Source: Actinomycetaceae bacterium (GTDB lineage Bacteria > Actinomycetota > Actinomycetes > Actinomycetales > Actinomycetaceae). From it: a stretch of DNA of 64,000 nucleotides. The stretch covers positions 124,001 through 188,000 of the forward strand of contig JAUNHH010000004.1 of NCBI GenBank assembly GCA_030524055.1, read 5' to 3'. Both the position numbers and the translations under genes were made by a program. This document shows positions 699 through 60,364 of the stretch, piece by piece; positions within the stretch are counted from its first letter, which is position 1, and every line of letters starts with the position of its first letter. The notes under the pieces are model-generated. The model was not told the origin of the DNA, searched no databases, and saw nothing but the letters and a program-made list of their open reading frames with translations.

Positions 699-2359
699 CT
701 TACAGCCCCCGAAAATTTGCTCTCTCAAGCACCATCCTTATTGCCGCTGCCCTTGCTGGCGCGGCCAGCGTTGTTGGCGTGGGAAAGGGCGTTTCCACGC
801 CAGAAAATGTCATCCACGCTGTGCCGTCAACAGCTGCACGAACAGAAGCGACCCTGGGCTGCCCTGGCGCAATCCTTGACCCTTTTACTGTCAGTGACGC
901 GAATCAGCGCGCAGTGCCCTCTATGGACACTTCGCCATCGGATGCACAGTCACACAATCAGTCAGAATCTCCCGCCTCATCTGCTGCCCAGTCGGCCATG
1001 TCGGGCAGGGCAGTAGAGGCTCCCGCGTCTGGTGCGCCTGTCGATCGCCCAATGTCCGCGCGCGCAACCTCCCCAATGTCGGGGGCGCCAATGTCCGGTA
1101 CACCCTCGGCGATGTCTGGAGCTGACACTCGGGCCTCAGGTGGCGATACCGCTGCCTCGGGCGCACAAAGTGGCGCCCTCATGTGGGCATCCACCCAACC
1201 TACCCGTACCTGGAGCCCAGCCACCTCGACCTTAAGCGGAGTGCGTCATAGTGAAGGGGCACCACCAACGGGTGCTGTCATCGCTGGTTATGGTGGCGGA
1301 GAATTGCGCTCCCTGACCATTTCAGGGTGTAAAGAAGCGGCGACAGAACAATATTTTGCGATTGGCTCCACCACTCTTGGTGAAGACCTGGTCTTAACCC
1401 TTGTTAACCCATCATCGCTACCCACTCAGGTTGATATTACGGCCTTTAGCAGCATTGGCCCCATTTCGGTGCCACCTCTGGAGATTACCGTGCCCGCCGG
1501 GCAAAGTGCGGTGGTCCTGCCAGCCTCATGGATTGTGGAAGAACAGCATCCTGTCCTGAAAATTGCAGCTGATGGGCCGGGTGTTGTTGCCTGGATGCAA
1601 ACTTCAGGTATGCAAGGAGAATTGCCGCTGGGCACAGCGCGGGTTCCCTCCACAACCCCGGCGACGCAGCATGTGATCCCCGGCCTCGTTCCAGGAAAAA
1701 ATGCCACTGCCCGTGTCTTTGTTCCCGGCCCTGATCCTGCCCATGTGACCCTCAGCGTCTCGGGTGAGGATGCAACGGTCCCCCTCGGTGGGGGAGAAGC
1801 TGATATTGACCCCCAGGCGGCCCTTGATATTCCTATCGGCTCCGTTCCGAAAGGCGTATCTGCCCTTGGGGTCTCCTCAACCGTTCCCGTTGTGGTTCAG
1901 GTCCTTCACAGTGGCGAGGGCGGGGCTTTCGCTTCAACAACCTCTACCTGGGGCTCACGTGATGGTCTCAGTCCTTCAACGCCAGTGACTTCCGCGCGCC
2001 TGCCAGGTAGTACTGATATGACGGCGGCTGTTACGCAGACCCTGAGCGCTGCGCCGCTGCGCCCCACGGCTCAACAGACCGCCAGTGGTGTTTCTGAAGT
2101 GAACTCCTCACTAAGTCTGACTGCTCCGGCTGATGCCCCAGCGACAGTCACTATTGGCGGAACCACTCTTGATATTCCGGCAGGAGCAACCCGTCAGACA
2201 CCGCTGCCTGCAACCTCTGAAAATCTGTCAGCGACAGTGCCCATCCATGTCAGCGTAACGCTGAGCGCCACCACACCAACAGGCCCGCTTCAGGCGTCCT
2301 GGCCGGTAGGGACACCCAGCGCAGCCGTGGCGGCGGGCACCGTCCTCGTCAATGACTAA
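695..2359 (+). CDS. DUF5719 family envelope protein
   Basis: A 554-residue protein with an N-terminal hydrophobic segment (about residues 10-30) acting as signal or anchor. A low-complexity stretch (about 85-165) follows, in which short MSG, ASG and QSG units recur. The C-terminal two thirds is beta-rich, with repeated patterns such as TLVNPSSLPTQVDI and SAVVLPASWIVEEQHPVL, as in DUF5719 proteins. The family is restricted to actinobacteria and has no known reaction. The protein is expected outside the membrane, working with the membrane protein encoded just upstream, whose stop codon it overlaps by 4 bp. The gene carries one copy (1915-1926) of the dispersed CGAGGGCGGGGC word. Confidence 0.7.
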   Translation: MTYSPRKFALSSTILIAAALAGAASVVGVGKGVSTPENVIHAVPSTAARTEATLGCPGAILDPFTVSDANQRAVPSMDTSPSDAQSHNQSESPASSAAQSAMSGRAVEAPASGAPVDRPMSARATSPMSGAPMSGTPSAMSGADTRASGGDTAASGAQSGALMWASTQPTRTWSPATSTLSGVRHSEGAPPTGAVIAGYGGGELRSLTISGCKEAATEQYFAIGSTTLGEDLVLTLVNPSSLPTQVDITAFSSIGPISVPPLEITVPAGQSAVVLPASWIVEEQHPVLKIAADGPGVVAWMQTSGMQGELPLGTARVPSTTPATQHVIPGLVPGKNATARVFVPGPDPAHVTLSVSGEDATVPLGGGEADIDPQAALDIPIGSVPKGVSALGVSSTVPVVVQVLHSGEGGAFASTTSTWGSRDGLSPSTPVTSARLPGSTDMTAAVTQTLSAAPLRPTAQQTASGVSEVNSSLSLTAPADAPATVTIGGTTLDIPAGATRQTPLPATSENLSATVPIHVSVTLSATTPTGPLQASWPVGTPSAAVAAGTVLVND

Positions 2360-2396
2360 ATAAGGGATACGCCGGGGCACAACACCGTGAACCCGT

Positions 2397-2840
2397 CTAC
2401 TGCAGGAAGTCCTCTAATTCATCCGGGGGAATCGCAATCACGTGGGAAATGCGCTCTGCCAGAATACGGCGCACTAATGTGGGTACTTCGCCTTTACCGG
2501 AGCGTTCAATAATTGGCAGCCGGTAAATAACGATCCGATCGCGTAAACCTCGGCGCCGATCCGCAGGGAAAAGCCTGGCTAAAACCTGCGAATGATCTTC
2601 CCATTGTGCGGGCGCAGACGGTGGTACATCTTCCGTCGCAAATTCGATAGTGGAGACCGCTGGCCAGCGGCTGGTGAATAAGGCCACGGTTTGTGCTACC
2701 AGAAGATCGAAAATCTCTCGCCGAGTCCGCCACAGGGGAATCCCCGGCAAGACAATAGGTCCGCGTGGACCGCGCCCATGCCGGTCGCGGGCAGGGCGAT
2801 GCGTCGGAGATATGGGTTTGGCAAGATTCTGCTCGGACAC
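2397..2840 (-). CDS. Zincin-like (metallopeptidase-family) protein lacking HExxH
   Basis: A 147-residue protein read from a GTG start. It has the layout of the minimal zincin family: a basic N-terminal tail, a central region, and near the end a segment RRILAERISHVIAI followed by PPDELEDF. In the peptidase family this segment normally carries HExxH (as in VHELAHHFG) followed by a short acidic tail. Here the two zinc histidines are replaced by Ala and Ser and only the Glu remains, so metal binding and proteolysis are unlikely. The gene converges on DUF5719 and diverges from DUF3499, its usual partner in actinobacteria. The role is unknown; the degeneration may be general in the actinobacterial branch. 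Confidence 0.65.
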   Translation of the reverse strand: MSEQNLAKPISPTHRPARDRHGRGPRGPIVLPGIPLWRTRREIFDLLVAQTVALFTSRWPAVSTIEFATEDVPPSAPAQWEDHSQVLARLFPADRRRGLRDRIVIYRLPIIERSGKGEVPTLVRRILAERISHVIAIPPDELEDFLQ

Positions 2841-2918
2841 TCGCCCACACTAACGTCCACACGGCTAACTTTGTGGTCGCCGCACGGAAGACGCCTCCTA
2901 GTGGCGTATTGTTAACCA

Positions 2919-3443
2919 GTGATCGCGGCACGGCACTGTTCTAAACCTGGATGTAAACGCCCCGCAGTGGCGACTTTGACCTACGACTATCAGGACTCCA
3001 CTGCTGTCCTAGGGCCTTTGGCAACCTCAAATGAACCCCATGCCTACGACCTATGCGAAATCCACGCTGACTCTCTGACTGCGCCCAGAGGCTGGCAGGT
3101 CGTGCGGCTGACAACCCGTTTTGATCCGGCCCCGCCGTCGTCTGACGATCTTCTTGCCCTCGTTGATGCGGTCCGCCAAGCGGCTGCGACCGGCGGGAAA
3201 TCTTCCTCACGCGTTGCGGCGAACGACCCTGCCCCGGAAAGTCCAGCGCCGAAGGCTGCGCCCGCCGCTCCCCGCGACGTCGAATACGGTCCTTTCCGTG
3301 ACCGCCACCAGGGGCTTCCAGAAGCACAGGATGCGCAGGACACTGACCTTGGGGATATTCCTGAGCTTCCCGCCCCTTGGGATGAACGTAGAGCACGTTT
3401 CCGCGTCATTTCCGAGGACGAGGGCGGGGCTACGCAGCACTAG
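2919..3443 (+). CDS. DUF3499 domain-containing protein
   Basis: A 174-residue protein with the DUF3499 hallmark at the N-terminus: a Cys pair (HCSKPGC), the segment PAVATLTYDY, then STAVLGPLA and a YDLCEIHADSLTAPRGW segment. The Cys and His residues suggest a small zinc-binding fold. The last 70 residues are Ala/Pro/Glu-rich and probably disordered. The GTG start at 2919 is the first in frame. No Shine-Dalgarno precedes it, but TATTGT lies 7-12 bases upstream, so the message may be leaderless. The 3' end carries a full copy of the dispersed word (3418-3430), encoding DEGGA. Function is unknown; it is nearly universal in actinobacteria. Confidence 0.8.
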   Translation: MIAARHCSKPGCKRPAVATLTYDYQDSTAVLGPLATSNEPHAYDLCEIHADSLTAPRGWQVVRLTTRFDPAPPSSDDLLALVDAVRQAAATGGKSSSRVAANDPAPESPAPKAAPAAPRDVEYGPFRDRHQGLPEAQDAQDTDLGDIPELPAPWDERRARFRVISEDEGGATQH

Positions 3444-5346: not shown

Positions 5347-5390
5347 AACGAGGGCGGGGCATGCTTTTTATTAGCAGCCCCGCCCTCGTT
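5347..5390. terminator. Bidirectional terminator built from two inverted copies of the dispersed word
   Basis: AACGAGGGCGGGGC at 5347-5360 and GCCCCGCCCTCGTT at 5377-5390 form a perfect 14-bp stem around a 16-nt loop. It lies between two convergent genes, which suits a two-way terminator. Each arm is an exact copy of the word found throughout the window. Confidence 0.85.
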
Positions 5391-5414: not shown

Positions 5415-6752
5415 CTACAATTTGCCGGCCTTCTTCAACTCCAAATAGGTGTCGGATGTGCGCGCTGCCAAAAGGCCCGCATCAGTGGCCACCACAACAG
5501 CACCTGCACGACGTAAATCCACGGCACTGGCATTTTCTTCTCGAAGAACTGACGCTGCCGCAGAAGCCGTAAACACCTCTTCGGCTGTGGAACGATTCTT
5601 ATGGGCACGCGCCAAATCCGGGTCCTGCGCGGACGCCACCAGAACGACGTGACGTTGCGAAAGCCTGCGCACAGCATCAGTAAAATCCGGATCCGAGCCC
5701 ACAGGGGGAATCTCCGTAGCCAACACAATCAAAGACCGGTGGCGCACAGTCCGATCCACCTCACGCACCACCAGATCCCAATCAATGGGCTGTAACGAGG
5801 GGTGAACATCAACCAGGGACTCCGCTGTGGTGTGCATAAGGGGACCGCCACGCACTCCGGATACACGGGCACGAACCTCACGATCCACGGCGAGGAAATG
5901 CACCTGGTCGCCAGCACGATCCGCCAGCGCTGCCAGTAATAACGCTGCCTCGATCTGCGCATCCAAACGGGCTGTCGATCCTAAATCGAGCACATCGGCA
6001 TCTCCAGTCGAGGTATCTGGCGCCCCTAAAAGAAGAGCCCCTGCTCGACCTGTATCCGTCACAATCACGACATGCCGATCCCGCTCGGGCCGCCATGTCC
6101 GCACCACGAGATCTTTCGAACGGGCCGATGCGCGCCAATCAATATCACGCGGATCGTCACCACGCACATACTCACGGAGCGAATCAAACTCAGTGCCCGG
6201 ACCCCGTAAAACCGTAGCCGTTGTACCTTCTAACTCGTGCAGACGAGCCAAACGTGACGGCAGGATCTTACGAGCACGGAACTCCGGCAGGACCGATAGG
6301 TGAACGGGTGCAGAAATACTGGCCTGCCGTGCTGCCAAGCCCAACGGCCCATAAATCCGGATGGTCACATAATCTGCGGTGCGTGTACCCCGCCTGGTCG
6401 GCGACAACACCGTGGTCACGCTGCCCTTTGCCCCACCAGGAAGACGCATCTCATGGCGGGCAGGGGAGGGCTGACACGAGGGCGGCCACCCATCACGGAT
6501 CAACAAACGAATCCCACGCCGTGTTGGATTCGTCACCGTCACCGTACTTTCAGCACTTTGATCAGCGCGAATGCTGCTTTCGACCTCGCGGGAAATCGAG
6601 ACAACAAAAGGAGAAACCGCCAATACCGCATCAAGGCAGAAAATCAGGACGCACAGCAACACCCATCCCCAAACGAAGGTGGTCGAGGGGAAGAAGACAA
6701 GGGGGATAATCCCAAGAAGAACCAGGATTGCCGCGCGGGGTGACAGTGCCAT
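5415..6752 (-). CDS. DUF58 domain-containing protein
   Basis: A 445-residue protein with two N-terminal membrane helices (ILVLLGIIPLVFF and GWVLLCVLIFCLDAVLAV), then the DUF58 core with the diagnostic FDSLREYVRGDDPRDIDWRASAR (quoted here only as the RGDDPRDIDWRASAR part, about residues 190-215) and a VWA-like region (VVIVTDTGRAG). DUF58 proteins work with MoxR-type AAA ATPases in envelope or protein-complex maturation. Its ATG overlaps the MoxR stop as ATGA, so the pair is translationally coupled, and it is the last gene of a five-gene minus-strand operon. One core copy of the dispersed word lies at 6476-6485. The start is fixed by the overlap. Confidence 0.85.
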   Translation of the reverse strand: MALSPRAAILVLLGIIPLVFFPSTTFVWGWVLLCVLIFCLDAVLAVSPFVVSISREVESSIRADQSAESTVTVTNPTRRGIRLLIRDGWPPSCQPSPARHEMRLPGGAKGSVTTVLSPTRRGTRTADYVTIRIYGPLGLAARQASISAPVHLSVLPEFRARKILPSRLARLHELEGTTATVLRGPGTEFDSLREYVRGDDPRDIDWRASARSKDLVVRTWRPERDRHVVIVTDTGRAGALLLGAPDTSTGDADVLDLGSTARLDAQIEAALLLAALADRAGDQVHFLAVDREVRARVSGVRGGPLMHTTAESLVDVHPSLQPIDWDLVVREVDRTVRHRSLIVLATEIPPVGSDPDFTDAVRRLSQRHVVLVASAQDPDLARAHKNRSTAEEVFTASAAASVLREENASAVDLRRAGAVVVATDAGLLAARTSDTYLELKKAGKL

Positions 6753-8005
6753 CAGCGTGGCACCGGAACCTGAGACAGCAGGGATTCAATCACGCTGCGC
6801 GCAGTAATCCCTTCAAGGTCGGCCTCGGCGCGCAGCCCCACCCTGTGAGCCAAAGTCGGCACAGCCATCGCCTTGACATCATCAGGGGTAACAAAAGCGC
6901 GTCCCTGAAGGAAAGCCCACACCCGCGAGACCCGCAGCAAAGCCGTGGCACCACGAGGGGACACACCAAGACGCAGCGAAGGAGCAGTGCGCGTGGCGCG
7001 AACCAGATCCACCACATAGGCCAAAACCGCAGGCGAAACTTCGACCTTTGCGGCGCTTTTACGGGCAGCGAGAATATCGGCAGGGCCAGCAACGGGCCGA
7101 ACGCCAGCGCCGGCAAGTGAGAGCGGGTCAAAACCATTTTGGTGGCGAGTCAGCACTTGAATTTCATCATCGCGCTCAGGCAGCGGAAGCTCCAGTTTAA
7201 GGAGGAAACGGTCGAGCTGAGCTTCAGGAAGGGGATAGGTCCCCTCATATTCCACCGGGTTCTGGGTGGCGATCACCATAAAGGGATCATCTAAACGGTG
7301 CGTGGTGCCATCAACACTGACCTGGTGCTCTTCCATGGCTTCCAGCAAGGAAGACTGGGTTTTTGGAGGAGTACGGTTAATTTCATCGGCGAGCAGCAGA
7401 TTCGTAAAAACAGGGCCCGGACGGAACTCGAAGGATGAGCTGCCCGCATCCCACACGAGGGAGCCCGTAATATCGGCAGGCATTAAGTCCGGCGTGAATT
7501 GGACGCGTGCCATTTTCATTTCAAGACACTGCGCAAGAGTACGCACCATCAGGGTTTTTGCCACCCCAGGAACACCCTCAAGAAGAGCGTGCCCACCAGC
7601 AACCAGGGCAATGACCAGGCCTGTGACAGCGCCGTGCTGACCCACCACGGCTTTGCCGATTTCCGCGCGGAGCTTTACCAAAGAATCGCGTACCCGTAGT
7701 TCTTCCGCATTGAGCTCAGGCTGGGCGCCGCTATAGAAGGCATTTCCATTCGACGAGGGCGGGGCCTGTTGCTGTGAGGCCTGTGGGGCAGGTGCCTGCG
7801 ACGGACCTGGACCCATAGGCGCACCCTGAGGGGGAGCTGGCTGCGACTGAGGTGCAGCCGGTGCCCCAGGATAGGCGCCCGCCTGGGGATAACCCTGCAC
7901 GGGCGCAGGGTAGGGCTGGGATTGTTGGGGAGCGTGCGGCTGCTGCTGGCCGCCCCAATTCTGCGCGGGGCCCTGCGGCGTTCCAGGGTAGTTCGGATCA
8001 GTCAT
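6752..8005 (-). CDS. MoxR-family AAA+ ATPase
   Basis: A 417-residue protein. The first 125 residues are Pro/Gln/Gly-rich low complexity. The MoxR ATPase follows, with Walker A GVPGVAKT, Walker B LLADEINR, sensor IATQNPVEYEGTYPLPEAQ and the lid domain. MoxR ATPases are chaperone-like and usually act with DUF58/VWA partners, encoded directly downstream here. The start at 8005 (MTDPNYPGT) overlaps the end of the DUF4350 gene by 8 bp; the longer open frame to 8113 would lie inside that gene. A full copy of the dispersed word (7753-7765) falls in the linker and encodes APPSS in this frame. The long disordered N-terminus is typical of Actinomyces-type proteins. Confidence 0.9.
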   Translation of the reverse strand: MTDPNYPGTPQGPAQNWGGQQQPHAPQQSQPYPAPVQGYPQAGAYPGAPAAPQSQPAPPQGAPMGPGPSQAPAPQASQQQAPPSSNGNAFYSGAQPELNAEELRVRDSLVKLRAEIGKAVVGQHGAVTGLVIALVAGGHALLEGVPGVAKTLMVRTLAQCLEMKMARVQFTPDLMPADITGSLVWDAGSSSFEFRPGPVFTNLLLADEINRTPPKTQSSLLEAMEEHQVSVDGTTHRLDDPFMVIATQNPVEYEGTYPLPEAQLDRFLLKLELPLPERDDEIQVLTRHQNGFDPLSLAGAGVRPVAGPADILAARKSAAKVEVSPAVLAYVVDLVRATRTAPSLRLGVSPRGATALLRVSRVWAFLQGRAFVTPDDVKAMAVPTLAHRVGLRAEADLEGITARSVIESLLSQVPVPR

Positions 8006-11953: not shown

Positions 11954-13526
11954 CGGTCGCCGTTTTTCTTTACGAGGGCGGGGCCTACTGCGAACAATCC
12001 GCTCCTCCCTTTCAGTACGCTCTGCCGTACTTATTACCGCATCGGGACTTCTTTTATCTCTGATTTTCGGTACGATCGTTTCTATTCAACTGACGAATCT
12101 GGTTTTCCAGAGTCGAAAAGACGCGATTCTTGAAGACGCTTCTTTGCGTTTTTCTGAGGCGAATACGATTTTTTCTCAGTCTACGGCGCAAAGTCAGGAA
12201 CAGGTTCAGGAACTGGCTCGTCAGGCAGTGCAGACTATTCATACGTCAGCTGGCGGTGCTGGGGCCAGCAGCGTTGTCCTTTTGCGCTCTCAGAGTGCCA
12301 CTCCAGGATTTCGTATTGCAGAAATTGTGGACCGAGATATTGAAGGTGTCCTCACCGAGGATATTCGCCGGTCATTAGCAGCCTCTGGGCAAGCTCAATG
12401 GCAATCAGTTGAGGTGACCACAGGTGACAGTAATGGAAATACTGCGCCAGGGATTATTGTGGGGACCCAAGTCACATTGCCTCGTGCTGGTGTCCATGAA
12501 CTGTATATTGTCTATTCTCTGGCTAATGATCAGGCCACTATTAATATGGTGATGTGGGTTTTAGCGGTGACCGCGCTCCCTATTCTTCTTACCTTACCTT
12601 TTAGTGTGTATCTGATGATGCATCACGTTTTGCGTCCGGTGCGCACTACTGCTGCCGCGGCTTCGCGTTTATCTGATGGAGATTTGGGGGCACGTGTTGA
12701 TGTCCATGGCAATGATGAAATGAGTCATCTCGCCAATGCCTTTAATGATATGGCCTCCTCACTTCAGAAACAGATTACGGAATATGACGAGTTATCGACA
12801 TTCCAGCAGCGTTTTGTCTCTGATGTTTCGCATGAATTGCGTACTCCACTGACCACTATTCGTATGGCAGAAGAAATGATTTGGGAGGAAAGGCAATCTC
12901 TTCCCCCTCATGCTAAACGTTCGGCGGAACTTCTCCATGAACAGGTCGCCCGCTTTGAATCGATGTTGGCGGACCTCCTGGAAATCTCGCGATATGACGC
13001 CCAAAGTGCTCTTCTTGACCCCGAAAATCTGGATTTACGCATAGTGGTGGTCAAAGTCGTCAAAGCTAATGCTGATTTGGCAGGGAGACTCAATGTTGCG
13101 GTAGATATTCGTAGTCCCGAATCGCCTTGCACCGCTGAAATCGATGCGCGTCGAATTGAGCGCGTCTTGCGGAATCTTCTCGTTAACGCTATTGAACATG
13201 CCGATGGCACGAATGTCATTATCGATATTGCCGCAACCAGTACAGATGTCGCTATTCGCGTGCGCGACCATGGGGTTGGAATGACTCCGGAAGTGGCCTC
13301 CCGTGTTTTTGATCGTTTCTACCGGGCAGACCCAGCACGTACCCGCACAACAGGTGGCACAGGCTTGGGACTATCTATTGCTAGTGAAGATGTGTCCCTC
13401 CATCACGGCACCTTAGAAGCCTGGGGGCAACCCGGCCAAGGCGCCTCATTCTTGATGACGCTGCCATCAAAAGTGGGTCGCGAACTTGTTTCACGTCCCC
13501 TGCAACTCTGGGAGGATAAGGAATAA
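11943..13526 (+). CDS. mtrB: Sensor histidine kinase MtrB
   Basis: A 527-residue membrane kinase: helix one (VLITASGLLLSLIFGTIVSI), an extracytoplasmic domain of about 170 residues, helix two (VMWVLAVTALPILLTLPFSVYL), HAMP (about 225-280), HisKA with phospho-acceptor H297 in SDVSHELRTPL, and an ATPase domain with NLLVNAIEHA, DHGVGM and GTGLGLSI. It phosphorylates MtrA. The ATG at 11943 is preferred to the GTG at 11919. It overlaps mtrA and is followed by lpqB in a TAATG junction, giving one operon. A full copy of the dispersed word (11972-11984) encodes LRGRGL in the N-terminal basic tail. Confidence 0.95.
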   Translation: MARSGRRFSLRGRGLLRTIRSSLSVRSAVLITASGLLLSLIFGTIVSIQLTNLVFQSRKDAILEDASLRFSEANTIFSQSTAQSQEQVQELARQAVQTIHTSAGGAGASSVVLLRSQSATPGFRIAEIVDRDIEGVLTEDIRRSLAASGQAQWQSVEVTTGDSNGNTAPGIIVGTQVTLPRAGVHELYIVYSLANDQATINMVMWVLAVTALPILLTLPFSVYLMMHHVLRPVRTTAAAASRLSDGDLGARVDVHGNDEMSHLANAFNDMASSLQKQITEYDELSTFQQRFVSDVSHELRTPLTTIRMAEEMIWEERQSLPPHAKRSAELLHEQVARFESMLADLLEISRYDAQSALLDPENLDLRIVVVKVVKANADLAGRLNVAVDIRSPESPCTAEIDARRIERVLRNLLVNAIEHADGTNVIIDIAATSTDVAIRVRDHGVGMTPEVASRVFDRFYRADPARTRTTGGTGLGLSIASEDVSLHHGTLEAWGQPGQGASFLMTLPSKVGRELVSRPLQLWEDKE

Positions 13527-15220: not shown

Positions 15221-15360
15221 GTGCGCAGACCTTCCCCTTCGATGGGGATAGTGACGAGGCCGGGGCACTATCCACAATTGCGTCCTGGCAGAAATACCGC
15301 TATCCACAAGCTGGTTTCGCACCCTTGCCGAATGGGGTGTCCTGCTGTTGAAGTGGCATC
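15221..15360 (+). promoter_or_regulatory. lpqB-comF spacer with two DnaA-box-like sites
   Basis: CTATCCACA occurs at 15268-15276 and 15300-15308, each one mismatch from TTATCCACA. A variant of the dispersed word, ACGAGGCCGGGGC, lies at 15253-15265. The DnaA-box reading rests on sequence only. Confidence 0.35.
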
Positions 15361-16059
15361 ATGCCGCCTGCTACTAGTCCCGCTCTTGCTCGGGACCTGA
15401 TGAATGCACTTTTTCCTGTCCAATGTTTAGGCTGTGGTCAATGGGATACCCCTTTATGCGATCACTGCTCCGCCCTCGTCAATAGCATTCCACATAGGTG
15501 GGAACTCCTCGGCGAAACTCCCAATGATATTCCTCTAGTGGTGGCCGGAAAATATGCTGGCCCATGGCGGAATATTATTTTGGCCCTCAAACACAATCAC
15601 GCCCTTGACGGAAAAGCCCTTTTATTGCGTATTGGCGGCGCCCTCGGGTACGGATTACTCAATAGCGGAATCCCTCCATGTGCTGCTTCTGCCACTGCAG
15701 ACCAAGAAAATATATGGGTGATCCCTGCGCCACCCAGTTGGAAAAGGCGCCTCAGTGGCCACAGCATTACTGACACCTTGGCACTTGGCCTTGCCCGTGT
15801 CCTTGCCAATGAGACTCAGCGGCCCGTCACTGTTGTCAATGCGATCTCCTTGCGTGTGGGCGCCTCATCGCAGGCCAGCCGAAGTGGCGAAGAACGGCGT
15901 CTGGCACGAAAAGGACAGATGCGCCTGCGCCTACCTGTTCCGTCGTCGGTTGACGTGGTCATCGTTGATGATGTGGTGACCACCGGGGCAACGATGCTGG
16001 AAATGGTGGCAATTCTTGGACGTCATCCGTGGGCTGCGCTGGCGATTGCCCGCGCATAA
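15361..16059 (+). CDS. comF: ComF family phosphoribosyltransferase-like protein
   Basis: A 232-residue protein. An N-terminal four-cysteine zinc motif (CLGC at 22-25 and CDHC at 33-36) precedes a PRTase-like domain ending in VVIVDDVVTTGATM (about 199-212), the PRPP-binding loop of the fold. ComF proteins are needed for late steps of DNA uptake and recombination in naturally competent bacteria; in many actinobacteria the gene is conserved but its role is untested. It sits in the usual place between lpqB and hpf. One core copy of the dispersed word (15470-15479) lies in the gene. The ATG start lacks a strong ribosome-binding site. Confidence 0.88.
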   Translation: MPPATSPALARDLMNALFPVQCLGCGQWDTPLCDHCSALVNSIPHRWELLGETPNDIPLVVAGKYAGPWRNIILALKHNHALDGKALLLRIGGALGYGLLNSGIPPCAASATADQENIWVIPAPPSWKRRLSGHSITDTLALGLARVLANETQRPVTVVNAISLRVGASSQASRSGEERRLARKGQMRLRLPVPSSVDVVIVDDVVTTGATMLEMVAILGRHPWAALAIARA

Positions 16060-17001: not shown

Positions 17002-17552
17002 TGTGTCCTTTGCCCTGACCATTAACGAGGGCGGGGCGCGGGCAGTGCCTGCCCATTATCGTAGACGGAGGATACTTATAACGTTAGGGACATACTCATA
17101 CACTTAGGGACTAAACCCCTACTTTAGGGACTAATCTCTATGTATATAACAGGGGATATTTGTCTCTAACTGTAGGGTTTTGTCTCTAACGCTATGTTTG
17201 GTCACCATCTGAGGAGCAGATCCCAGACGAGGAATAGATCCCAGGTTGGGTACACCTTGGTGGTGGGAATAGAGCAATCTCTGCCACGCAATATGTCTTG
17301 TGGGGGAGAGTCTTGTGGCGACTGAGGTATTTATTCTCGGTGCGCTTTATTCCCGGCGACCTCTCAGTGAGGTGAATCCCGCCCTCGTAGACGGTGCGAG
17401 GGAACTTACCATGACACGCATTCTGTGCGCCGATGGCGAATCTGAAGAGTAATGGGAGGCGCCAGTGGATAGGTTGCGTAGACTGGATACCACGTGCTGC
17501 CACGCACGTCCGGTGTCGATCTCCGACCCGGCCACCAATCAGGGAGACCTCC
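17002..17552. other. hpf-secA intergenic region
   Basis: More than 500 bp without a convincing gene. It holds two copies of the dispersed word facing each other (17025-17037 plus, 17378-17388 minus), the 20-bp-pitch array, and the secA leader. An open frame on the minus strand (17192-17755) runs into secA and resembles no family. Confidence 0.7.
17084..17190. repeat. Symmetric array: three direct and three inverted 8-12-bp boxes on a 20-bp pitch
   Basis: TTAGGGAC occurs at 17084, 17104 and 17124, exactly 20 bp apart. The opposite orientation, GTCTCTAA, occurs at 17162 and 17182, with a degenerate third copy (GTATATAA) at 17142, again 20 bp apart. The full unit resembles TTAGRGACWAA. The stretch is AT-rich compared with its surroundings and lies 360 to 470 bp before secA. 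It is not a CRISPR array (units too short) and matches no element I know. Confidence 0.75.
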
Positions 17553-32394: not shown

Positions 32395-32430
32395 GATTTC
32401 CTTGTGTGACGAGGGCGGAGCGCTGGGCGT
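32395..32430. other. Convergent spacer with one copy of the dispersed word
   Basis: Thirty-six bases between the amidotransferase and rsgA stops. They hold ACGAGGGCGGAGC at 32409-32421, one base off the full word, followed by a weak AGCGC-type hairpin. Confidence 0.5.
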
Positions 32431-35424: not shown

Positions 35425-36096
35425 ATGCAGACTGTAACTTCGTCCGGCGTGACTACTGACGAGGCCGGGGCCCCGCCCTCGTCACCTCCTGGCACACTCC
35501 GCACAAAGGAGCGCGCCGAAACTGAGCGCGCAGACCACGATGCGCGCTTTGAGGCTGAAGCGCTACCACTCCTGGGGCAACTTTATGGAGCAGCTCTGGG
35601 CTATACGCGCAACCACTCTGATGCCGAAGACCTTGTCCAAGAGACCTTCCTCAAGGCCTACGACCGTTTCCATCAATACACGCCAGGAACCAATATCAAG
35701 GCCTGGATGTACCGGATCCTGACTAATACCTACCTGTCGAATTACCGCAAAGCTCAGCGCTCTCCGAAGCGCAGCACCTCCGACCAGGTTGAAGACTGGC
35801 AACTCGCCTCGGCAGCATCCCACGCGGATCAGGGACTGACCTCAGCAGAAGACGAGGCCCTGGCTCTTATGCCCTCGCGGGACCTTCGCGAAGCTCTGCA
35901 CGACCTACCGGAAGAACAGCGCCTTATCGTCCTCCTTGTGGACGCGCAAGGATTGACCTATAAGGAGGCAGCCGAAACCTTGGATATCCCTTTAGGAACG
36001 GTCATGTCGCGCCTACATCGCGCTCGGAAAACCCTGCGAGAAGAACTCACGTCACTTGCGCGCGACCACGGAATTGGAGGGCAAGCAGATGACTAA
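35425..36096 (+). CDS. sigH: RNA polymerase sigma factor SigH/SigR (ECF family)
   Basis: A 223-residue ECF sigma factor. Region 2 has [18 protein letters not shown] (about 70-87) and [20 protein letters not shown]; region 4 has [23 protein letters not shown] and [15 protein letters not shown]. Together with the zinc anti-sigma factor encoded downstream this is the thiol-oxidative-stress system SigH/SigR-RsrA. The first 45 residues are an Ala/Pro/Ser-rich extension that includes the inverted pair of the dispersed word. The stop overlaps the rsrA start by 8 bp. Confidence 0.93.
35458..35483. repeat. Inverted pair of the dispersed word inside sigH
   Basis: ACGAGGCCGGGGC (35459-35471, one base off the full word) abuts the exact word in reverse (GCCCCGCCCTCGT, 35470-35482). 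The 26-bp stretch is a near-perfect palindrome lying 12 codons into sigH. Confidence 0.8.
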
Positions 36097-36670: not shown

Positions 36671-36702
36671 TTGTATTCACAACAGAAACGACGAGGGCGG
36701 GG

Positions 36703-41641: not shown

Positions 41642-42367
41642 ATGAATACAACAGCTTCTTCCCCCATACAGATCGCTTCAACCCAGGTTCCATTTGGACG
41701 ACTCGCTATTGCAATGGGAATTCGTTTTCTCCCCATTCTTGCTGCCTCAGCGACATTTCTCGCTCTGGGAATCAACCCCTATTTTCTCAATGTCGCCATT
41801 ATTGGCATTGACATTTTGACATTGGTCGTCCTTCACTTCTTCATGAAGGCAGAAGGCAAACGCTTGCGGGATCTTTTTCTTCCCTTCAAAGCTATCGATA
41901 TCGCATGGGGATTACTTGCTTTCCTTATCTTCGTTGTCACCTGGTGGATCGCCAGTTTCATTTCGTGGCTCATTGTGTATCAAGGGCAAATGCCCACCGC
42001 AGGGTATTCTCAACCCAGTATTCCATTATGGCTGGGACTCATCTCCGTGGTGATTATGCCCATCACTATTGCCCTCGCTGAAGAAGCCCTTTATCGCGGA
42101 TACCTCCAAACTCGTTTATCCACACGTTTTGGCGCAGTCTCTGGTCTCCTACTTTCCGCTATTGTCTTTGGTATTCAGCACATTGGATTCCGACTGCCAA
42201 ATATTCAAGCCAGTGCTGTTCAGGTACTCACTACCCTTATTGCCGGCCTCGTCCTCGGAGGGTTGATGCTTTGGTTCAAGCGCACAGGCCCTCTTGTGAT
42301 CGCCCACTGGGGACTCGATTTTCTCTTCCTGGGTCTGCCTGCCCTCTTCCTCGCCATCGCCAACTGA
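41642..42367 (+). CDS. CPBP family intramembrane glutamic endopeptidase
   Basis: A 241-residue polytopic protein with about seven hydrophobic helices. The catalytic motifs are EEALYRGYL (Glu at 147-148), FGIQHIGF (His at 180) and a later HWGLDFLF (His at 222), the signature of CPBP (Abi) intramembrane proteases. Family members process prenylated proteins or give self-protection against bacteriocins. It heads a four-gene plus-strand unit with the double operator. The target is unknown. Confidence 0.88.
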   Translation: MNTTASSPIQIASTQVPFGRLAIAMGIRFLPILAASATFLALGINPYFLNVAIIGIDILTLVVLHFFMKAEGKRLRDLFLPFKAIDIAWGLLAFLIFVVTWWIASFISWLIVYQGQMPTAGYSQPSIPLWLGLISVVIMPITIALAEEALYRGYLQTRLSTRFGAVSGLLLSAIVFGIQHIGFRLPNIQASAVQVLTTLIAGLVLGGLMLWFKRTGPLVIAHWGLDFLFLGLPALFLAIAN

Positions 42368-45804: not shown

Positions 45805-45837
45805 CCCCGCCCTCGTAAATAATTGACGAGGACGGGG
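45805..45837 (+). terminator. Terminator made from the dispersed word and its variant
   Basis: CCCCGCCCTCGT (45805-45816) faces ACGAGGACGGGG (45826-45837): a 12-bp stem with one mismatch and a 9-nt loop after the second CNNM gene. The right arm is a one-base variant of the word. Confidence 0.75.
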
Positions 45838-47576: not shown

Positions 47577-48331
47577 TGATGCCGGTGGCCCGCCGTGGCG
47601 GCCCGCTGATTTTTGCCCACAGGGGTGGTACTGAATACGCCCTGGAAAATACGTGGGAGGCATTTGATTATGCGCGCTCTATTGGGGTTACCCATTGTGA
47701 AACGGACGCGCATTTAAGTGCTGATGGCGTAGTGGTGATCCACCATGACGACACCCTGGAATGTACTTTCGGTATTGCGCGTGCTATTTCCGATATGCGG
47801 TGGGAAGAATTGCAGGATGTACGAGGGCGGGGTGGCGAAAGGATTCTCCGTCTTTCCGATGCCCTCCAGTCCTTTCCCGACCTCTATTTCAATATCGACG
47901 CAAAGTCGAATCAGGTGGCAGTGCCCCTTGTGGATGAATTGCGTATCTGCAATGCCTTGGATCGCACCCTAGTGGCGTCCTTCTCTGAATCGCGTTTGCA
48001 ACATCTGCGGCGCTATGAACCTGCTTTATCGACCTCTTTAGGCACTACTGCTGTGGCGCGCCTTCTCCTTGCTGCTCAGAGTGCGACTCGCCCTGAGCGC
48101 TGGTGTGTGCCTGGACCGGCCAATGGTGTCCGTGCAGTCCAAGTTCCGCCCATCTATTCCGGTATTCCTGTCGTTACCCCGCGTTTTATTGCCACTGCCC
48201 ATCAGGCGGGCCTTGCAGTCCATGTGTGGACTATTAACGATCCTGTGCAGGTGCAGCAGCTTCTTGCCATGCGTGTGGATGGGATTGTGACAGACAGGCC
48301 CACAATGGTCCGCGATATTGTTGGCGCCTAA
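47576..48331 (+). CDS. Glycerophosphodiester phosphodiesterase
   Basis: A 251-residue GDPD barrel: FAHRGGTEYALENT (catalytic His-Arg-Gly, about 14-27), CETDAHLSADGVVVIHHDDTLE (metal-binding Glu/Asp and second His), and the C-terminal VHVWTIND. It hydrolyses glycerophosphodiesters to glycerol-3-phosphate. It lacks a signal peptide, so it is probably cytoplasmic. It is co-translated with the M23 gene. A 12-base copy of the dispersed word (47821-47832) encodes VRGRG. Confidence 0.92.
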   Translation: MMPVARRGGPLIFAHRGGTEYALENTWEAFDYARSIGVTHCETDAHLSADGVVVIHHDDTLECTFGIARAISDMRWEELQDVRGRGGERILRLSDALQSFPDLYFNIDAKSNQVAVPLVDELRICNALDRTLVASFSESRLQHLRRYEPALSTSLGTTAVARLLLAAQSATRPERWCVPGPANGVRAVQVPPIYSGIPVVTPRFIATAHQAGLAVHVWTINDPVQVQQLLAMRVDGIVTDRPTMVRDIVGA

Positions 48332-50161: not shown

Positions 50162-50465
50162 TGGTACTCCTTTCGTGAAGATTCCTTATCGCAAGACCGC
50201 CCTTAGTTTACTGGGTGGCTGCAGGTCATGTGTCCCGAAAGGTGATCTTGGACGCTTAAAGGGGGTGATTTGGTCATTTGGGGGTGTCGAGTTGTACCAG
50301 TTCTTGTACTGTTACACACTGTCTGTAGTGAGGTGGTGAGATCCCGTCACCAGGAGTAGCCTGCTACTCCGCCCTCGTGCAGTGCCATCAGACTTAGGCG
50401 CCTCCCGCCGGGAAAGTTCCCCACGGGTGAGGCTAGAGTTTGCAGAAAGTGAAGGAGCGTATTGG
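50162..50465. promoter_or_regulatory. Divergent promoter region
   Basis: About 300 bp between nhaD and the next plus-strand gene. A perfect inverted repeat GGAGTAGC/GCTACTCC (50353-50360, 50363-50370) is followed directly by a core copy of the dispersed word (50369-50378, minus). No gene is evident. Confidence 0.55.
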
Positions 50466-51566: not shown

Positions 51567-51750
51567 ACCGCTGCCACGATGACATGTGCCGCCTGAAAAT
51601 GCGTCGTGGTGGCCGTTTGTATGTGATGGACGAGGGCGGGGCTGCTATTTGTGCAGGTCAGAAATTTTGGTCCCACAGTCCCGACTGACAACCCGCGCCC
51701 GCAACGACAATTGCCGCTTGGAAACACGTCTTGGCGGCGGTTTGTCCGCC
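51555..51750 (-). repeat. Intergenic repeat element, copy B
   Basis: The reverse complement of 48421-48615, aligned without gaps. The dispersed word ACGAGGGCGGGGC (51630-51642) lies near its centre; copy A has a degraded form there (CTCGCCCTCG). It ends 46 bp from tRNA-Arg. Confidence 0.75.
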
Positions 51751-52009: not shown

Positions 52010-52459
52010 ATGCGTGTCCATATTGGTACTGATCATGCCGGCTTTGAATTGAAGAATGCCATCGTTACCTACCTGCAAGAAAAAGGGTATGACGTGGTGG
52101 ATCACGGCGCACACACCTATGACGCCCTTGATGACTACCCGCCTTTTTGTATTGCCGCTGCTGAAGCGGTCGTTAATGAGCCGGGCTCTTTAGGGATTGT
52201 CATTGGCGGGTCGGGCAATGGCGAACAAATGGCCGCCAATTGTGTCAAGGGAGTGCGCGCCGCCCTCGTATGGAATGACAGCACTGCTGCCCTAGCTCGC
52301 GAACACAATGACGCTAATGTCATTTCTGTGGGAGGCCGCCAACATTCCACCGAAGAAGTTTTGCGCTTTATTGATATTTTCTTGACCACTCCATTTTCTG
52401 GGGACGAACGCCACCAACGCAGGATTGACCTGATGGCTGACTACGAGGAAACCCGCTAG
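52010..52459 (+). CDS. rpiB: Ribose-5-phosphate isomerase B
   Basis: A 149-residue RpiB/LacAB-type isomerase: GTDHAGFELKNAI at the start, a GSGNGEQMAANCVKGVRAAL motif, and REHNDANVISVGGR in the middle. It interconverts ribose-5-phosphate and ribulose-5-phosphate. The motif following IGGSGNG has Ala-Ala-Asn-Cys, so a Cys is close to the usual position. AAGGA lies before the ATG. A core copy of the dispersed word lies at 52260-52269. Confidence 0.93.
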   Translation: MRVHIGTDHAGFELKNAIVTYLQEKGYDVVDHGAHTYDALDDYPPFCIAAAEAVVNEPGSLGIVIGGSGNGEQMAANCVKGVRAALVWNDSTAALAREHNDANVISVGGRQHSTEEVLRFIDIFLTTPFSGDERHQRRIDLMADYEETR

Positions 52460-54016: not shown

Positions 54017-55696
54017 GTGACCCCAGAAGAACTTGCTGACCTTATTCGCATCTGCCTTAATGATGCTGTTGCTAGCGGCGCACTCGCGCTAGCACAGGAG
54101 GACATTCCCGAAACGGTGAAGGTAGAGCGTCCCCGAAATCGTGATCATGGGGATTGGGCAACAAATGTCGCTCTGCAATTGGCGAAGAAGGCGCAGAGTT
54201 CTCCTCGCGATTTTGCCCAGGCATTAGCCGATCTTCTTTCTGCGAAAGACGGCATTGATTCTGTTGAGGTGGCAGGGCCTGGTTTTATTAATATTCGCCT
54301 TGCGGCTGCCTCTGCGGGTGAACTTGCCCGTCTTATTGTTCAGTCGCAAGGGGAGTATGGCCGTAATGAGTCCCTCGCCGGTAAACATATTAATCTCGAA
54401 TATGTTTCTGCTAATCCCACGGGCCCCATTCATTTAGGTGGTGCACGGTGGGCTGCTGTTGGGGATTCCCTGGCCCGTTTAATGGTGGCTAGTGGCGCAC
54501 AAGTCACGCGCGAATACTATTTCAATGATCACGGTGCGCAGATTGATCGTTTTGCGCGTTCATTGCTGGCTCGGGCACGTGGCCAGGAAGCCCCCGAAGA
54601 TGGCTACGGCGGGCAATATATTGCTGATATCGCTGATCAGGTTCGTGCTGATGCTGCGGCAGCGGGTGAGGTTGACCCGGCCACCTTGCCTGAGGACGAA
54701 GCCGTAGAAGCCTTCCGCTCGCGCGGCGTGGCATTAATGTTTGCCGAAATCAAGGCACGCCTCAGTGCCTTTAATGCCGAGTTTGATGTCTTTTTCCACG
54801 AGGACTCACTGCATGATTCTGGAGCAGTTACGCGCGCTATTAATGTTTTGCGCGAGCGTGGAGAAATCTTCGATGAAGCGGGAGCGACGTGGTTACGTAC
54901 CACCCGTTATGGTGATGATAAAGACCGGGTACTCATTAAATCCGATGGGCAGGCTGCGTATTTTGCCGGTGATGTTGCCTATTATTTAGATAAACGAGGG
55001 CGGGGCGCTGATACCGCTATTTATCTTCTTGGTGCCGACCACCATGGGTATATCGGCCGAATGATGGCAATGTGCGAAGCCTTTGGCGATAAACCGCATG
55101 AGAATATGCAAATCCTTATTGGCCAGATGGTGAATCTGGTCAAAAATGGGGAACCTGTGCGAATGTCGAAACGCGCAGGAAATATTGTCACCCTGGATGA
55201 TTTAGTGGACGCTGTTGGCGTTGATGCGGCCCGCTATGCATTAGTGCGCGTATCCATGGATTCCAATCTGGATATTGACCTGGATCTTTTGGCCTCGCAT
55301 TCCAATGACAATCCCGTGTACTACGTGCAATACGCCCATGCCCGGACCTGCAATGTCGCCCGTAATGCGCATGACCATGGGGTCACGCGCGACGGTGGAT
55401 TCGAGCCGGGTGCTTTAGATAGCCCCGCAGACGCGGATCTTCTTGGGGTGCTGGCACAATTCCCCGCACAGATTGCTCAGGCGGCCGATTTACGTGAACC
55501 TCACCGTCTGGCCCGCTACTTAGAGTCGCTGGCTGCTGCTTACCACACGTGGTATGGCAAGTGCCGGGTTGCTCCTCGTGGAGATGACCCTGTTGAAGCT
55601 GGTCATATTGCTCGTTTGTGGCTCAATGATGCTGTCACCCAGGTGCTGCGCACTGGCTTGGGTCTGCTGGGTGTGTCAGCTCCAGAAAGGATGTGA
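54017..55696 (+). CDS. argS: Arginyl-tRNA synthetase
   Basis: A 559-residue class I synthetase: N-terminal Add1 domain, [20 protein letters not shown] with the HIGH-like HLGG (about 139), and the later [28 protein letters not shown] with the KMSKS-like MSKRAG (about 382). The GTG at 54017 begins the family sequence ([13 protein letters not shown]) and the upstream frame is unlike it. A leaderless start is likely. Coupled to lysA. It carries a full copy of the dispersed word (54994-55006, KRGRGA). Confidence 0.95.
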
Positions 55697-57126
55697 TGAT
55701 GGGTTCGTCATCTGCTGAATCGCGTGAAGAAGCCCCGGTCGGTTCCTTGATTTGTCCGGAGCCTGCCGAGCGTCCAGATTTGTGGCCATGGACAATGCGC
55801 AGAGACGCCGACGGGGTGCTGTCCCTCGCTGGCGTTCCATTGACTACGATTGCCCAGGATTTCGCGACCCCTGCTTTTGTCATGGATCGCGCCGATTTAC
55901 GAGGGCGGGCACAGGTGTGGGCCAGCGCCATGGCAGAAGAATTCTGGGATGGCTATGGAATGAGTGGGGGAGATGCCTTTTATGCAGGTAAAGCTTTCCT
56001 CTGTTCCGACGTTGTCCGCACGGTAACAGGCGTTGGAATGGGCGTGGATACTGCGTCTTTAGGTGAACTCACCTGCGCATTGCGCGGGGGAGCCCTGCCT
56101 AGTGTCATTGGACTGCACGGGAATAATAAACTCGATAGTGAAATTGAAACGGCGCTTTTAGCGGGAGATAAAGAGGGAATCGAGAGGATCTTTATCGACT
56201 CGCTCTCTGAAGTTGCGCAGGTTGAGAAAATCGCGGCACACCTTGGGGTCCGCGCCCGTGTGATGATTCGCGTCAAAACGGGTGTGCACGCGGGAGGAAA
56301 TGAATATATTTCCACAGGGCACGAAGACCAGAAGTTCGGGGTTGGCGCATTTGATGGGCAACTCGATGAGGTTGTCAGCGCAATTGCTGCCAGTCCACAT
56401 TTGGAATTGCGGGGTCTTCATAGCCATATTGGCTCTCAGATTCACGGGGTCGATGCTTTTAAAGAAGCAGCCGCTATTATGTGCGATCTGAGTGCGAAGG
56501 TTAGCGCGCAGATTGGTGCTCCTTTGCCGGAAATTGATTTAGGTGGGGGAGTAGGTATTGCCTATACGGGTGCAGACCCTGTTCCCACTGCTCCAATTGA
56601 GGTTGTTCGCGCTGTTGCGAGTGTCATTCGCGAGAAATGCACAGAATTGGGGATCGCGATTCCGCGAGTTTCTGTTGAGCCTGGCCGCAGTGTGGTGGGT
56701 CCAACCACTATTAGCTTGTATCGCGTTGGGGCGGTAAAAGACGCGATTCTTGGATCTGATACGCATCGCCGGCGTTATGTCGCTGTTGATGGGGGAATGG
56801 CAGATAATATTCGCCCGGCGCTTTATGGTGCGCACTATACGGCGACTTTAGCGAATCGCATTTCGGACGCCCCTGTTGTTCGTAGCCGGGTGGTGGGAAA
56901 ACACTGCGAAAGCGGCGACATTATTGTGTGGGATGTGGACCTACCCAGCGATATTCAATCGGGGGATCTTCTAGCTGTTCCAGCCACAGGAGCCTATGGA
57001 TATTCCATGGCCTCGAATTACAATATGCTTCCCAAGCCCGGTGTGATTGCCGTTGAAAACAGTGAGGCGAAGTGGATTGTCCGCCCGCAAACCATCGATG
57101 ACGTTCTCGCTCTGGATTGCGGCTGA
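55696..57126 (+). CDS. lysA: Diaminopimelate decarboxylase
   Basis: A 476-residue PLP enzyme making lysine from meso-diaminopimelate. The Schiff-base lysine is K99 in YAGKAF. Other motifs are HSHIGSQIHG, DLGGGVGIAY, and VEPGRSVVGP in the substrate loop. The ATG at 55696 has GAAAGG upstream; the GTG at 55693 is also possible. It overlaps the end of argS by one base. The usual next gene hom is absent; a strong terminator follows and then the DUF6318 cluster. A core copy of the dispersed word lies at 55899. Confidence 0.95.
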   Translation: MMGSSSAESREEAPVGSLICPEPAERPDLWPWTMRRDADGVLSLAGVPLTTIAQDFATPAFVMDRADLRGRAQVWASAMAEEFWDGYGMSGGDAFYAGKAFLCSDVVRTVTGVGMGVDTASLGELTCALRGGALPSVIGLHGNNKLDSEIETALLAGDKEGIERIFIDSLSEVAQVEKIAAHLGVRARVMIRVKTGVHAGGNEYISTGHEDQKFGVGAFDGQLDEVVSAIAASPHLELRGLHSHIGSQIHGVDAFKEAAAIMCDLSAKVSAQIGAPLPEIDLGGGVGIAYTGADPVPTAPIEVVRAVASVIREKCTELGIAIPRVSVEPGRSVVGPTTISLYRVGAVKDAILGSDTHRRRYVAVDGGMADNIRPALYGAHYTATLANRISDAPVVRSRVVGKHCESGDIIVWDVDLPSDIQSGDLLAVPATGAYGYSMASNYNMLPKPGVIAVENSEAKWIVRPQTIDDVLALDCG

Positions 57127-59190: not shown

Positions 59191-59359
59191 CCCGTCCCTC
59201 CTTTCTTGCCAAGGGTCTTGCCTGTCCCTGGGGAGTTGGTGGTTCGGCTTGGACCAAGCCTGGCCCTGCTGCTTGCAGTAAAGAATCCGTTTTGTCCCCT
59301 TCGATTCCTACTTCTTACCCACATGTTTCATGGTGTCGTGTTTTAAGGAGGTCTTTGTC
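59191..59359 (+). other. Short spacer between the PKD-like gene and DUF6318 copy 2
   Basis: A GGCTTGG-type palindrome lies near 59237. No gene is seen. Confidence 0.5.
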
Positions 59360-60364
59360 GTGTCTGGTGGTCCGCAGTCTCAGCGCCCGTCTGGCAATAC
59401 ACCCCACCGCCCTCATCACCGTCGTGGCGGGCCGGCTGGGGGTGAGCAGGCGGGTTCTGCTGCTTTGGTGGAGCGGGATCAAAGCGAGGCCAGTGACGGT
59501 GAGGCTGGTGATGATCAGGGGGTGTGGTATGAGCATGTGAATCTCACGGGGAAAGACTTGTTTCGTGCTCTTTTATGGGCTAACGGGATTGTGATTGCGG
59601 TGTGTGTTTTCCATGCTGTCATGTTTTTGCCTCCTTATGGCGTGTTTTATGACGGGCCTGCACGGCCAGGTCACCTAGAACACCACGCCACCGACACGGT
59701 CGATAACCACCCGCCGCATACTGGTGACGCCCAGGCCGCAAGTGGTAGTAGTGGTGGTGGTCAGTCGGATTCTGGTCTGGCACAGTCCACTGTTCAAACC
59801 CCGCACCCGCCCAATCACAGTGGCAGTGGCAGTGGTGATGCTCCCAGCAGCACTGGCACTGGCAGTGACAGTGCTGGTCAGTCTGCTGCCCCGCCCTCGT
59901 CAACTAGTGCCGATACGCCACTACCAGAAAAACCCAACACCCCCCACAACCTAGACGACAACAGTGCGATAGAGCTAGCGAATTACTATGTTGATGTCCT
60001 GACCTACTCCGCTGACACAGGCGACACGAAACCGCTAGATGACCTTTTTGCTCCTAACTGTCAAGAATGTGCCAATGTCAGCAAGGGTATACGGAGTCTG
60101 TATGACAAAGGTGCCTGGGTAGAAGGGATCTCGTATTCCATTGATGGTGAGATCACCACCTCGCGTGGTCCGCAGCAAAGTGGGCGACATCCTTACTGGC
60201 TTGTTCACATTCGACTTCTCAGTTCACAACACGCTATTACTGACCTCCAATCCCGGAAAAGGCACCCCGCCTCCCAGACATCCACCACCCTGGCCCTATG
60301 CCAACACAACACCCAATGGAAAATCTGCGCCATCCGCCAGGAACCGGCCCAACAATCAAGATAG
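59360..60364 (+). CDS. DUF6318 family membrane-anchored protein, copy 2
   Basis: A 334-residue paralogue: a basic, His-rich N-terminus, one helix (ALLWANGIVIAVCVFHAVMFL), a Ser/Gly/Pro-rich linker (QSDSGLAQST, SGSGSGDAPSST), and a DUF6318 domain (IELANYYVDVLTYSADTGDTKPLDDLFAPNCQEC, of which YSADTGDTKPL and CQEC match copy 1). The C-terminal Cys pair is present (LCQHNTQWKICA). GTG at 59360 has AAGGAGG 10 bases upstream. The 5' half is G+T-rich and the 3' half A+C-rich on the same strand, a clear switch. A full copy of the dispersed word (59888-59900, minus) encodes APPSS. Confidence 0.78.
   Translation: MSGGPQSQRPSGNTPHRPHHRRGGPAGGEQAGSAALVERDQSEASDGEAGDDQGVWYEHVNLTGKDLFRALLWANGIVIAVCVFHAVMFLPPYGVFYDGPARPGHLEHHATDTVDNHPPHTGDAQAASGSSGGGQSDSGLAQSTVQTPHPPNHSGSGSGDAPSSTGTGSDSAGQSAAPPSSTSADTPLPEKPNTPHNLDDNSAIELANYYVDVLTYSADTGDTKPLDDLFAPNCQECANVSKGIRSLYDKGAWVEGISYSIDGEITTSRGPQQSGRHPYWLVHIRLLSSQHAITDLQSRKRHPASQTSTTLALCQHNTQWKICAIRQEPAQQSR

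Follow-up and report, generated by a model that had tools for sequence, protein, structure and literature searches.

A strand-balanced, dialect-forming word in a Schaalia-type actinobacterium: a probable DNA uptake sequence

The 64,000-nucleotide stretch considered here, called the window throughout, belongs to an Actinomycetaceae bacterium (assembly GCA_030524055.1, contig JAUNHH010000004.1, positions 124,001 to 188,000 of the forward strand) and carries, among other genes, a comF-like gene, secA, argS, and the genes of a 5-enolpyruvylshikimate-3-phosphate (EPSP) synthase and of a decarboxylase of the ornithine/diaminopimelate/arginine type. Its main feature is a short asymmetric word, the 10-base core ACGAGGGCGG, which is present in 28 exact copies, 16 on the plus and 12 on the minus strand, against a mean of 0.16 and a maximum of 2 in 100 shuffled windows. 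The core is extended to an exact 13-mer in 13 cases, against 0 in the shuffled windows. Both counts had been given in a first-pass annotation, in which the word was proposed as a candidate DNA uptake sequence, and both were reproduced; the span of the word had been set at 1915 to 59900, and its right end coincides with the end of the last 13-mer, but the first exact core is located at 3418 and not at 1915.

Within genes the 13-mer is found on the plus strand at 3418-3430 (exact core 3418-3427), 7753-7765, 11972-11984, 20350-20362 (in secA), 25982-25994, and 54994-55006 (in argS), and on the minus strand at 30697-30709; the genic 10-mer cores are at 6476-6485, 25175-25184, 47821-47830, and 55899-55908 (in the decarboxylase gene) on the plus strand and at 15470-15479 (in the comF-like gene), 22165-22174, 24583-24592, 33916-33925 (in the EPSP synthase gene), and 52260-52269 on the minus strand. 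The intergenic copies include the plus-strand 13-mers at 17025-17037 and 51630-51642, the plus-strand cores at 32409-32418, between convergent genes, and 36691-36700, and the minus-strand core at 50369-50378; the core at 17379-17388 (minus), upstream of secA, is also called intergenic. Two further copies were called non-coding, the core at 41098-41107 (plus), comprised in the longer start of the open reading frame (ORF) 37472-41314, and the 13-mer at 59888-59900 (minus), inside the ORF 59330-60364; in fact, the cores at 41098 and 59891 fall in ORFs that the simple gene caller shortened or dropped. The proportion of intergenic copies, previously estimated as 9 of 28 in about a tenth of the window, is here 11 of 28 in called non-coding DNA amounting to 14.5% of the window, since the gene calls differ.

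Three inverted pairs had also been described and are present when position 7 of the word is allowed to vary. In the pair 5348/5380 two 13-mers, the left arm at 5348-5360 (plus), between convergent genes, and the right arm at 5377-5389 (minus), fold with -37.1 kcal/mol; in the pair 35459/35473 the variant ACGAGGCCGG (35459-35468, plus) faces the 13-mer at 35470-35482 (minus), and in the pair 45807/45826 the core at 45807-45816 (minus) faces the variant ACGAGGACGG (45826-45835, plus). Other variants of the form ACGAGG[AC]CGG are located at 1680-1689, 2340-2349, 18853-18862, and 42243-42252 on the minus strand and, in intergenic DNA, at 15254-15263 on the plus strand. The comF gene reported in the window corresponds to a comF-like gene at 15361-16059 (plus), which matches TIGR00201 with an E value of 1.4e-14 and scores 54.5 bits, below the curated cut-off of 233.55.

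The excess of the word extends beyond the window: in the 3,034,260-base draft genome (47 contigs) ACGAGGGCGG occurs 689 times on the forward and 688 times on the reverse strand, against 7 and 6 copies of the same word read backward as a control, and the strand balance that had been taken to speak against a strongly polar role is thus a property of the whole genome. In a 385-kb sample of this genome, consisting of the window and 20 further pieces and having a GC content of 54%, the over-represented 8-, 10-, and 12-mers are topped by words bearing the core; in particular, ACGAGGGCGGGG is seen 110 times, and 0.06 occurrences are expected from trinucleotides.

The complete motif comprises about 17 bp, ATTgACGAGG(G/A/C)CGGGGC. 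The consensus of 168 aligned copies is ATT(g)ACGAGG[G>A,C]CGGGG[C>T], and the information falls close to background on either side of positions -4 to +12; among 102 variants differing from the 13-mer by one letter, 30 change position 7 and 23 have C to T at position 13, while CGAGG and the next CG are near-invariant. Single copies have similar profiles in coding and intergenic DNA, sharper in the latter (136 coding, 69 intergenic, and 57 paired copies). In the sampled 15% of the genome, codon use and a mobile-element family, which the first-pass annotation had named, beside a lack of excess outside the window, as circumstances that would undo its proposal, have been rejected as sources of the excess. 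A 405-kb sample of the genome contains 174 copies, 91 in genes, 82 in intergenic DNA, and 1 across an edge; about 16% of this sample was called non-coding, an upper bound because the gene caller, a simple one, misses some genes. The 91 genic copies use all six frames and are divided into 43 sense and 48 antisense, numbers that drop to 2.2 and 2.3, respectively, when synonymous codons are shuffled within each gene. The flanks of the copies are unrelated; therefore, the word is not carried by a repeat element.

The distribution of the word was described on a 445-kb sample of the same genome (24 pieces: the window, L086-L105, L193, L215, and L216). The 271 ACGAGGNCGG sites are under-dispersed in 5-kb bins, with a variance/mean ratio of 0.51, compared with 0.90 on average and 0.55 as the lowest of 2000 trials of random placement. 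At short range, 29 neighbour pairs are separated by at most 60 bp, 25 inverted and 4 on the same strand, whereas chance would yield about 10 in total. Among the 24 tabulated inverted pairs (gap up to 45 bp), which form hairpins and in many cases adjoin stop codons, 22 occupy intergenic DNA and 10 are flanked by convergent genes. In gaps of 20-800 bp the density of the word per kb is 5.83 between convergent genes (28 words), 1.84 between tandem genes (41), and 1.47 between divergent genes (17). Neighbouring words separated by over 75 bp favour opposite strands (137 opposite, 84 same; p 4e-4), mostly within 2 kb; a different motif definition in the same sample gives 95 opposite and 72 same (p 0.09), and six congeners lean in the same direction, none significantly by itself, with summed values of 337 opposite and 262 same. 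The strands are mixed also in the congener G014, for which 22 pieces along a 3.3-Mb contig contain 117 plus and 119 minus words, both strands occurring in every word-bearing piece.

Among named organisms, the best relatives of one window protein belong to Actinomycetaceae, with a top identity of 76% to Actinomyces culturomici, and the genus appears to be a Schaalia-type group. Its members use different forms of the word, and related words also emerged when over-represented words were counted de novo in congeners. In nine congeners (G010, G011, G012, G019, G022, G023, G025, G028, and G034) ACGAGGCCG reaches 738-1131 copies, against 25-49 for its backward controls, and ACGAGGGCGG is limited to 40-64 copies; the whole genome of G005 contains 1039 copies of ACGAGGACG. 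The left half common to these words, ATTGACGAGG, ranges from 6 to 312 copies across 35 genomes of the genus, with the top counts in G000 (312), G005 (229), G003 (214), and G030 (156), and exceeds 40 in only 2 of 178 other genomes of the family (41 and 54). The backward control is not codon-matched, and therefore weight is given to the largest counts and to a codon-shuffle test in which the trinucleotides following CGAGG in coding DNA were compared with their shuffled expectation in 16 sampled genomes. From these dialect counts and from the de novo ones, pieces with at least 100 N or at most 3000 bases were excluded, with the loss of about half of the G014 sample. After CGAGG, GCG is found 160 times against 33 in G000 and ACG 95 against 25 in G005; G030 prefers CGC (38 against 8), CGG (33 against 10), and CGA (31 against 9), corresponding to the form CGAGGCG, while CCG (63 against 13) and CCT (40 against 5) in G016 and CCG in G024 (44 against 9) correspond to CGAGGCC. 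Several trinucleotides are in excess in G004 (GCG 56 against 12, ACG 44 against 14, CCG 38 against 9, and TCG 29 against 8) and in G003 (GCG 39 against 12 and GTG 17 against 6.5). In this test G035, which belongs to another genus, has no codon-corrected excess after CGAGG.

In a tree of 21 proteins from taxa represented by 23-kb samples, four rows with an excess of CGAGGCC form one clade (100/100). The match between dialects and tree is partial, because the CGAGGCC excess recurs in the two S. odontolytica-like rows, beside S. georgiae, which has an excess of CGAGGCG. Close pairs of genomes in the CGAGGCC dialect share identical words in 15/20, 23/25, and 23/28 cases at 95, 94, and 90% nucleotide identity, and in 15/17, 23/27, and 24/28 cases in the reverse directions; about 69, 63, and 49% would be expected for independent 7-mers (identity to the 7th power), lower than the observed 75-92%. 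Only the conservation of the word itself is reported, since the matched control words had just 0-8 cases each. Outside the genus, 23-kb samples reveal an excess of CGAGGNCG in A. minihominis (L014) and Varibaculum (L021) and, weakly, in Gleimia (L015) and Mobiluncus, and no clear excess in samples of the same size from Actinomyces massiliensis, A. gerencseriae, A. sp. oral taxon 448, Trueperella bernardiae, Flaviflexus, and Buchananella. The excess seen for A. minihominis, Varibaculum, and Gleimia hints at an origin of the word before that of the genus. In the same tree L006, titled Trueperella pyogenes strain 331, groups with the Schaalia-type species and apart from T. bernardiae, so that its species label looks wrong.

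A complement of competence and pilus genes, which the first-pass annotation had proposed to look for, is present in the genome. Genes for ComEA (SLBB and helix-hairpin-helix domains) and ComEC (PF03772), both with Pfam matches above the cut-offs, form an operon with holA, and dprA and the comF-like gene are also found. Two Tad/Flp loci are encoded: the first comprises TadA (419 bits, above the cut-off), a T2SSF protein, a TadE-type minor pilin (39.2 bits, with a cut-off of 40), and a DUF4244 protein that is taken to be the putative Flp pilin; the second comprises another TadA (267 bits, under the cut-off), two T2SSF proteins, and TadE. ComEC occurs in 55 of 58 relatives and in all 53 of the good genomes among them. 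TadA of the first type is encoded in 21 of 22 genomes of the genus in one set and in 13 of 15 in a second; G000 and G021 are common to both sets, and the misses are G021 and G029, which are 70% and 88% complete.

The word may be scarce in foreign DNA, as a few stretches suggest. Two of the 22 G014 pieces (20-kb stretches) have no word at all: one is a mobile element encoding a TrwC relaxase, ArdC, a primase-polymerase, and an Mrr-type nuclease, and the other is a capsule-type polysaccharide locus with glycosyltransferases, LicD, and WbsX. Fourteen word-free gaps are listed for the host genome, of which the annotation covers one, the longest (8.5 kb, L104:1-8553, cut at the edge of the piece), which contains a pretoxin-HINT protein and SUKH/Imm1 immunity-type genes. 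A PF00144 (beta-lactamase-fold) protein is encoded at L104:10893-12146, beyond the word-free stretch. A 14-base form occurs in at least 120 viral-contig stretches, with one match each among the matches listed, which is uninformative, and the comparison with plasmids gave just weak matches. Other repeats were encountered in the same material. CRISPR-array-like units (clustered regularly interspaced short palindromic repeats) are present at least 85 times in the G035 pieces L151, L152, and L154 and about 47 times in the G016 pieces L143, L144, L188, and L189. The G014 sample (L118-L120, L155-L174, and L194) contains overlapping repeats around AAGTCCGCTCTGTT (37-45 copies) and 28 intergenic copies of GGGATGATC, which suggest further repeat families; in the host genome sample TATTGCTG is dispersed and five-fold enriched (68 seen, 13 expected).

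A genome-wide, codon-independent, strand-balanced, and dialect-forming word is therefore a feature of an actinobacterial genus provided with Tad and Com genes. Strand use, spacing, preference for convergent gaps, inverted pairs, dialects, and competence genes all fit the candidate role advanced in the first-pass annotation, and we consider it likely that the word serves this Schaalia-type actinobacterium as a DNA uptake sequence; the uptake role is inferred from the match of its traits to the DNA uptake sequence (DUS) of Neisseria and the uptake signal sequence (USS) of Haemophilus. In the model proposed here, in which binding, preferential uptake, drive, and receptor are all postulated, a surface DNA-binding component of the competence system, possibly the Tad/Flp pilin, a minor pilin, or ComEA, would prefer double-stranded DNA with ATTgACGAGGvCGGGGC, and the fragments bearing the word would enter via ComEC and recombine into the chromosome. 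Self DNA would be taken up with a bias and recombined again and again, a form of molecular drive, and copies would therefore build up on either strand and anywhere they are tolerated. Intergenic copies would be over-retained and inverted pairs would be placed where hairpins suit terminators; the letters recognised would drift between lineages, generating dialects around the CGAGG core.

A broader reading, which we regard as fairly likely, is that this is a Gram-positive uptake-sequence system of third independent origin, served by a Tad/Flp pilus, with the dialects CGAGGGCG, CGAGGACG, CGAGGCG, and CGAGGCC limiting gene exchange between species of the genus; the weaker signals in A. minihominis, Varibaculum, and Gleimia would place its origin before that of the genus. 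If true, finding such a system for a third time, independently, in a monoderm phylum and with another pilus, would mean that self-specific uptake evolves repeatedly; active natural transformation would be predicted across Schaalia-type bacteria, the word would provide a starting point in the search for the DNA receptor of Tad/Flp competence, and the gene-flow barriers between these species would be explained.

Among the other explanations, an unlikely but the most serious one is that the word is the site of a chromosome-organising or nucleoid-associated protein, selected at intervals of about 2 kb on both strands. The regular spacing and the enrichment between genes would fit such a site too, as does the preference of neighbours for opposite strands; against it, the single-position changes specific to lineages, the gene-end hairpins of inverted pairs, and the absence of the word from the mobile and capsule stretches all repeat the pattern of uptake sequences. 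Known sites of that kind, for example parS and matS, are restricted to regions of the chromosome. The word might also be recognised by a modification or restriction enzyme or be a by-product of modification, and its asymmetric core, in which CGAGG does not vary, could be a methylation target, but the motif of about 17 bp has graded positions and, to our knowledge, modification sites are not usually hundredfold enriched or regularly spaced, which makes this origin very improbable.

Even less credit can be given to a polar recombination or segregation signal, namely a Chi-like stop for AdnAB/RecBCD or an equivalent of KOPS (FtsK-orienting polar sequences). Chi and KOPS motifs are oriented with replication and share with the word the short, asymmetric, and over-represented character; in contrast, the word is balanced between the strands genome-wide, between sense and antisense in genes, and within the pieces of G014 (origin and terminus positions not mapped), and neighbouring words favour opposite strands, so that a polarity of this kind is contradicted by the mixed strands. 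Comparably remote is a mobile repeat family resembling repetitive extragenic palindromic (REP) elements or miniature inverted-repeat transposable elements (MITEs), or a plain set of transcription terminators: the tabulated inverted pairs, many of them beside stop codons, would agree with it, but no longer unit is shared by the unrelated flanks, more than half of the copies in the 405-kb sample (91/174) are within genes in six frames, and most are single, with 25 close inverted pairs among 271 sites; terminators are contradicted by the coding single copies.

The assignment of the word to DNA uptake has to be weighed against several observations that do not favour it. A purely structural DNA-binding protein would account for many of the same traits, and the opposite-strand tendency of neighbouring words is not obviously explained by uptake. 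The matches to the NCBIfam models of comEA, full-length ComEC/Rec2, and comF remain under the curated cut-offs, and the detailed host-genome analyses cover at most 445 kb of 3.03 Mb (about 15%). Dialects are not always clear-cut: G013 mixes 458 copies of ACGAGGGCGG, 808 of ACGAGGCCG, and 984 of ACGAGGACG, the codon-corrected excess is modest in the high-GC genome G014 (CGAGG followed by GCG 136 times against about 88 shuffled), and it is weak in G002 (GCG 41 against 23) and G001 (35 against 16). G032, a 99% complete genome of the same genus, shows no excess of the three words, with 0 copies of ACGAGGGCGG, 22 of ACGAGGCCG, and 50 of ACGAGGACG (backward controls 3, 25, and 68), and only the left half ATTGACGAGG is mildly raised (16 against 2); it nevertheless has ComEC and the first Tad ATPase. 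This genome, whose de novo sampling consists of one 20-kb piece, the other three pieces being all N, may be a natural case of word loss or of an uncounted dialect. The machinery does not predict the word, because G035, which lacks a codon-corrected excess, also has ComEC and TadA; in general, the distribution of TadA and ComEC does not separate the genomes with the word from those without it.

The comparison with known systems can be based on three cases. In the portions of the literature used here, the DUS of Neisseriaceae is described as a very abundant short word with eight lineage dialects around an invariant core and with inverted pairs linked to terminators, and five Neisseriaceae genomes are without an obvious abundant repeat (PMC3630211). 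The actinobacterial word resembles the DUS in its abundance and shortness, in the dialects around an invariant core, in the inverted pairs at gene ends, and in the occurrence of a member with no excess of the three words counted; it differs in the core, CTG in the DUS and CGAGG here, in the host, and in the pilus genes, which are of Tad/Flp type here and type IVa with ComP there. The two well-scoring secretion ATPases of the host genome are both Tad-type, although no search was aimed at ComP. The USS of Pasteurellaceae, according to the parts of the source considered, is a short and highly enriched word that has two dialects, an extended motif around it, and an invariant inner core GCGG, and only two Gram-negative families are named there for uptake words (PMC12616744). 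High enrichment, extended motif, dialects, and an invariant inner core are common features, while machinery and phylum differ, and GCGG occurs in the host dialect ACGAGGGCGG and not in the CGAGGCC or CGAGGACGA words. Because core and pilus differ, the word is a member of neither the DUS nor the USS system. Among the titles and abstract openings listed in paper searches, none describes an uptake word for Actinobacteria.

A parallel for the machinery is Micrococcus luteus, which carries two tad-like clusters and takes up DNA by means of Flp/Tad pili together with comEA and comEC (PMC6370729, in the sections drawn upon). The host genome is similar in having comEA, comEC, and two tad-like clusters with TadA, TadE, and a putative Flp-type pilin; an uptake word is not mentioned in those sections, and the genomes compared here are from outside M. 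luteus. The best reading is that of a system that would work as the DUS of Neisseria or the USS of Haemophilus does, with another word and another pilus.

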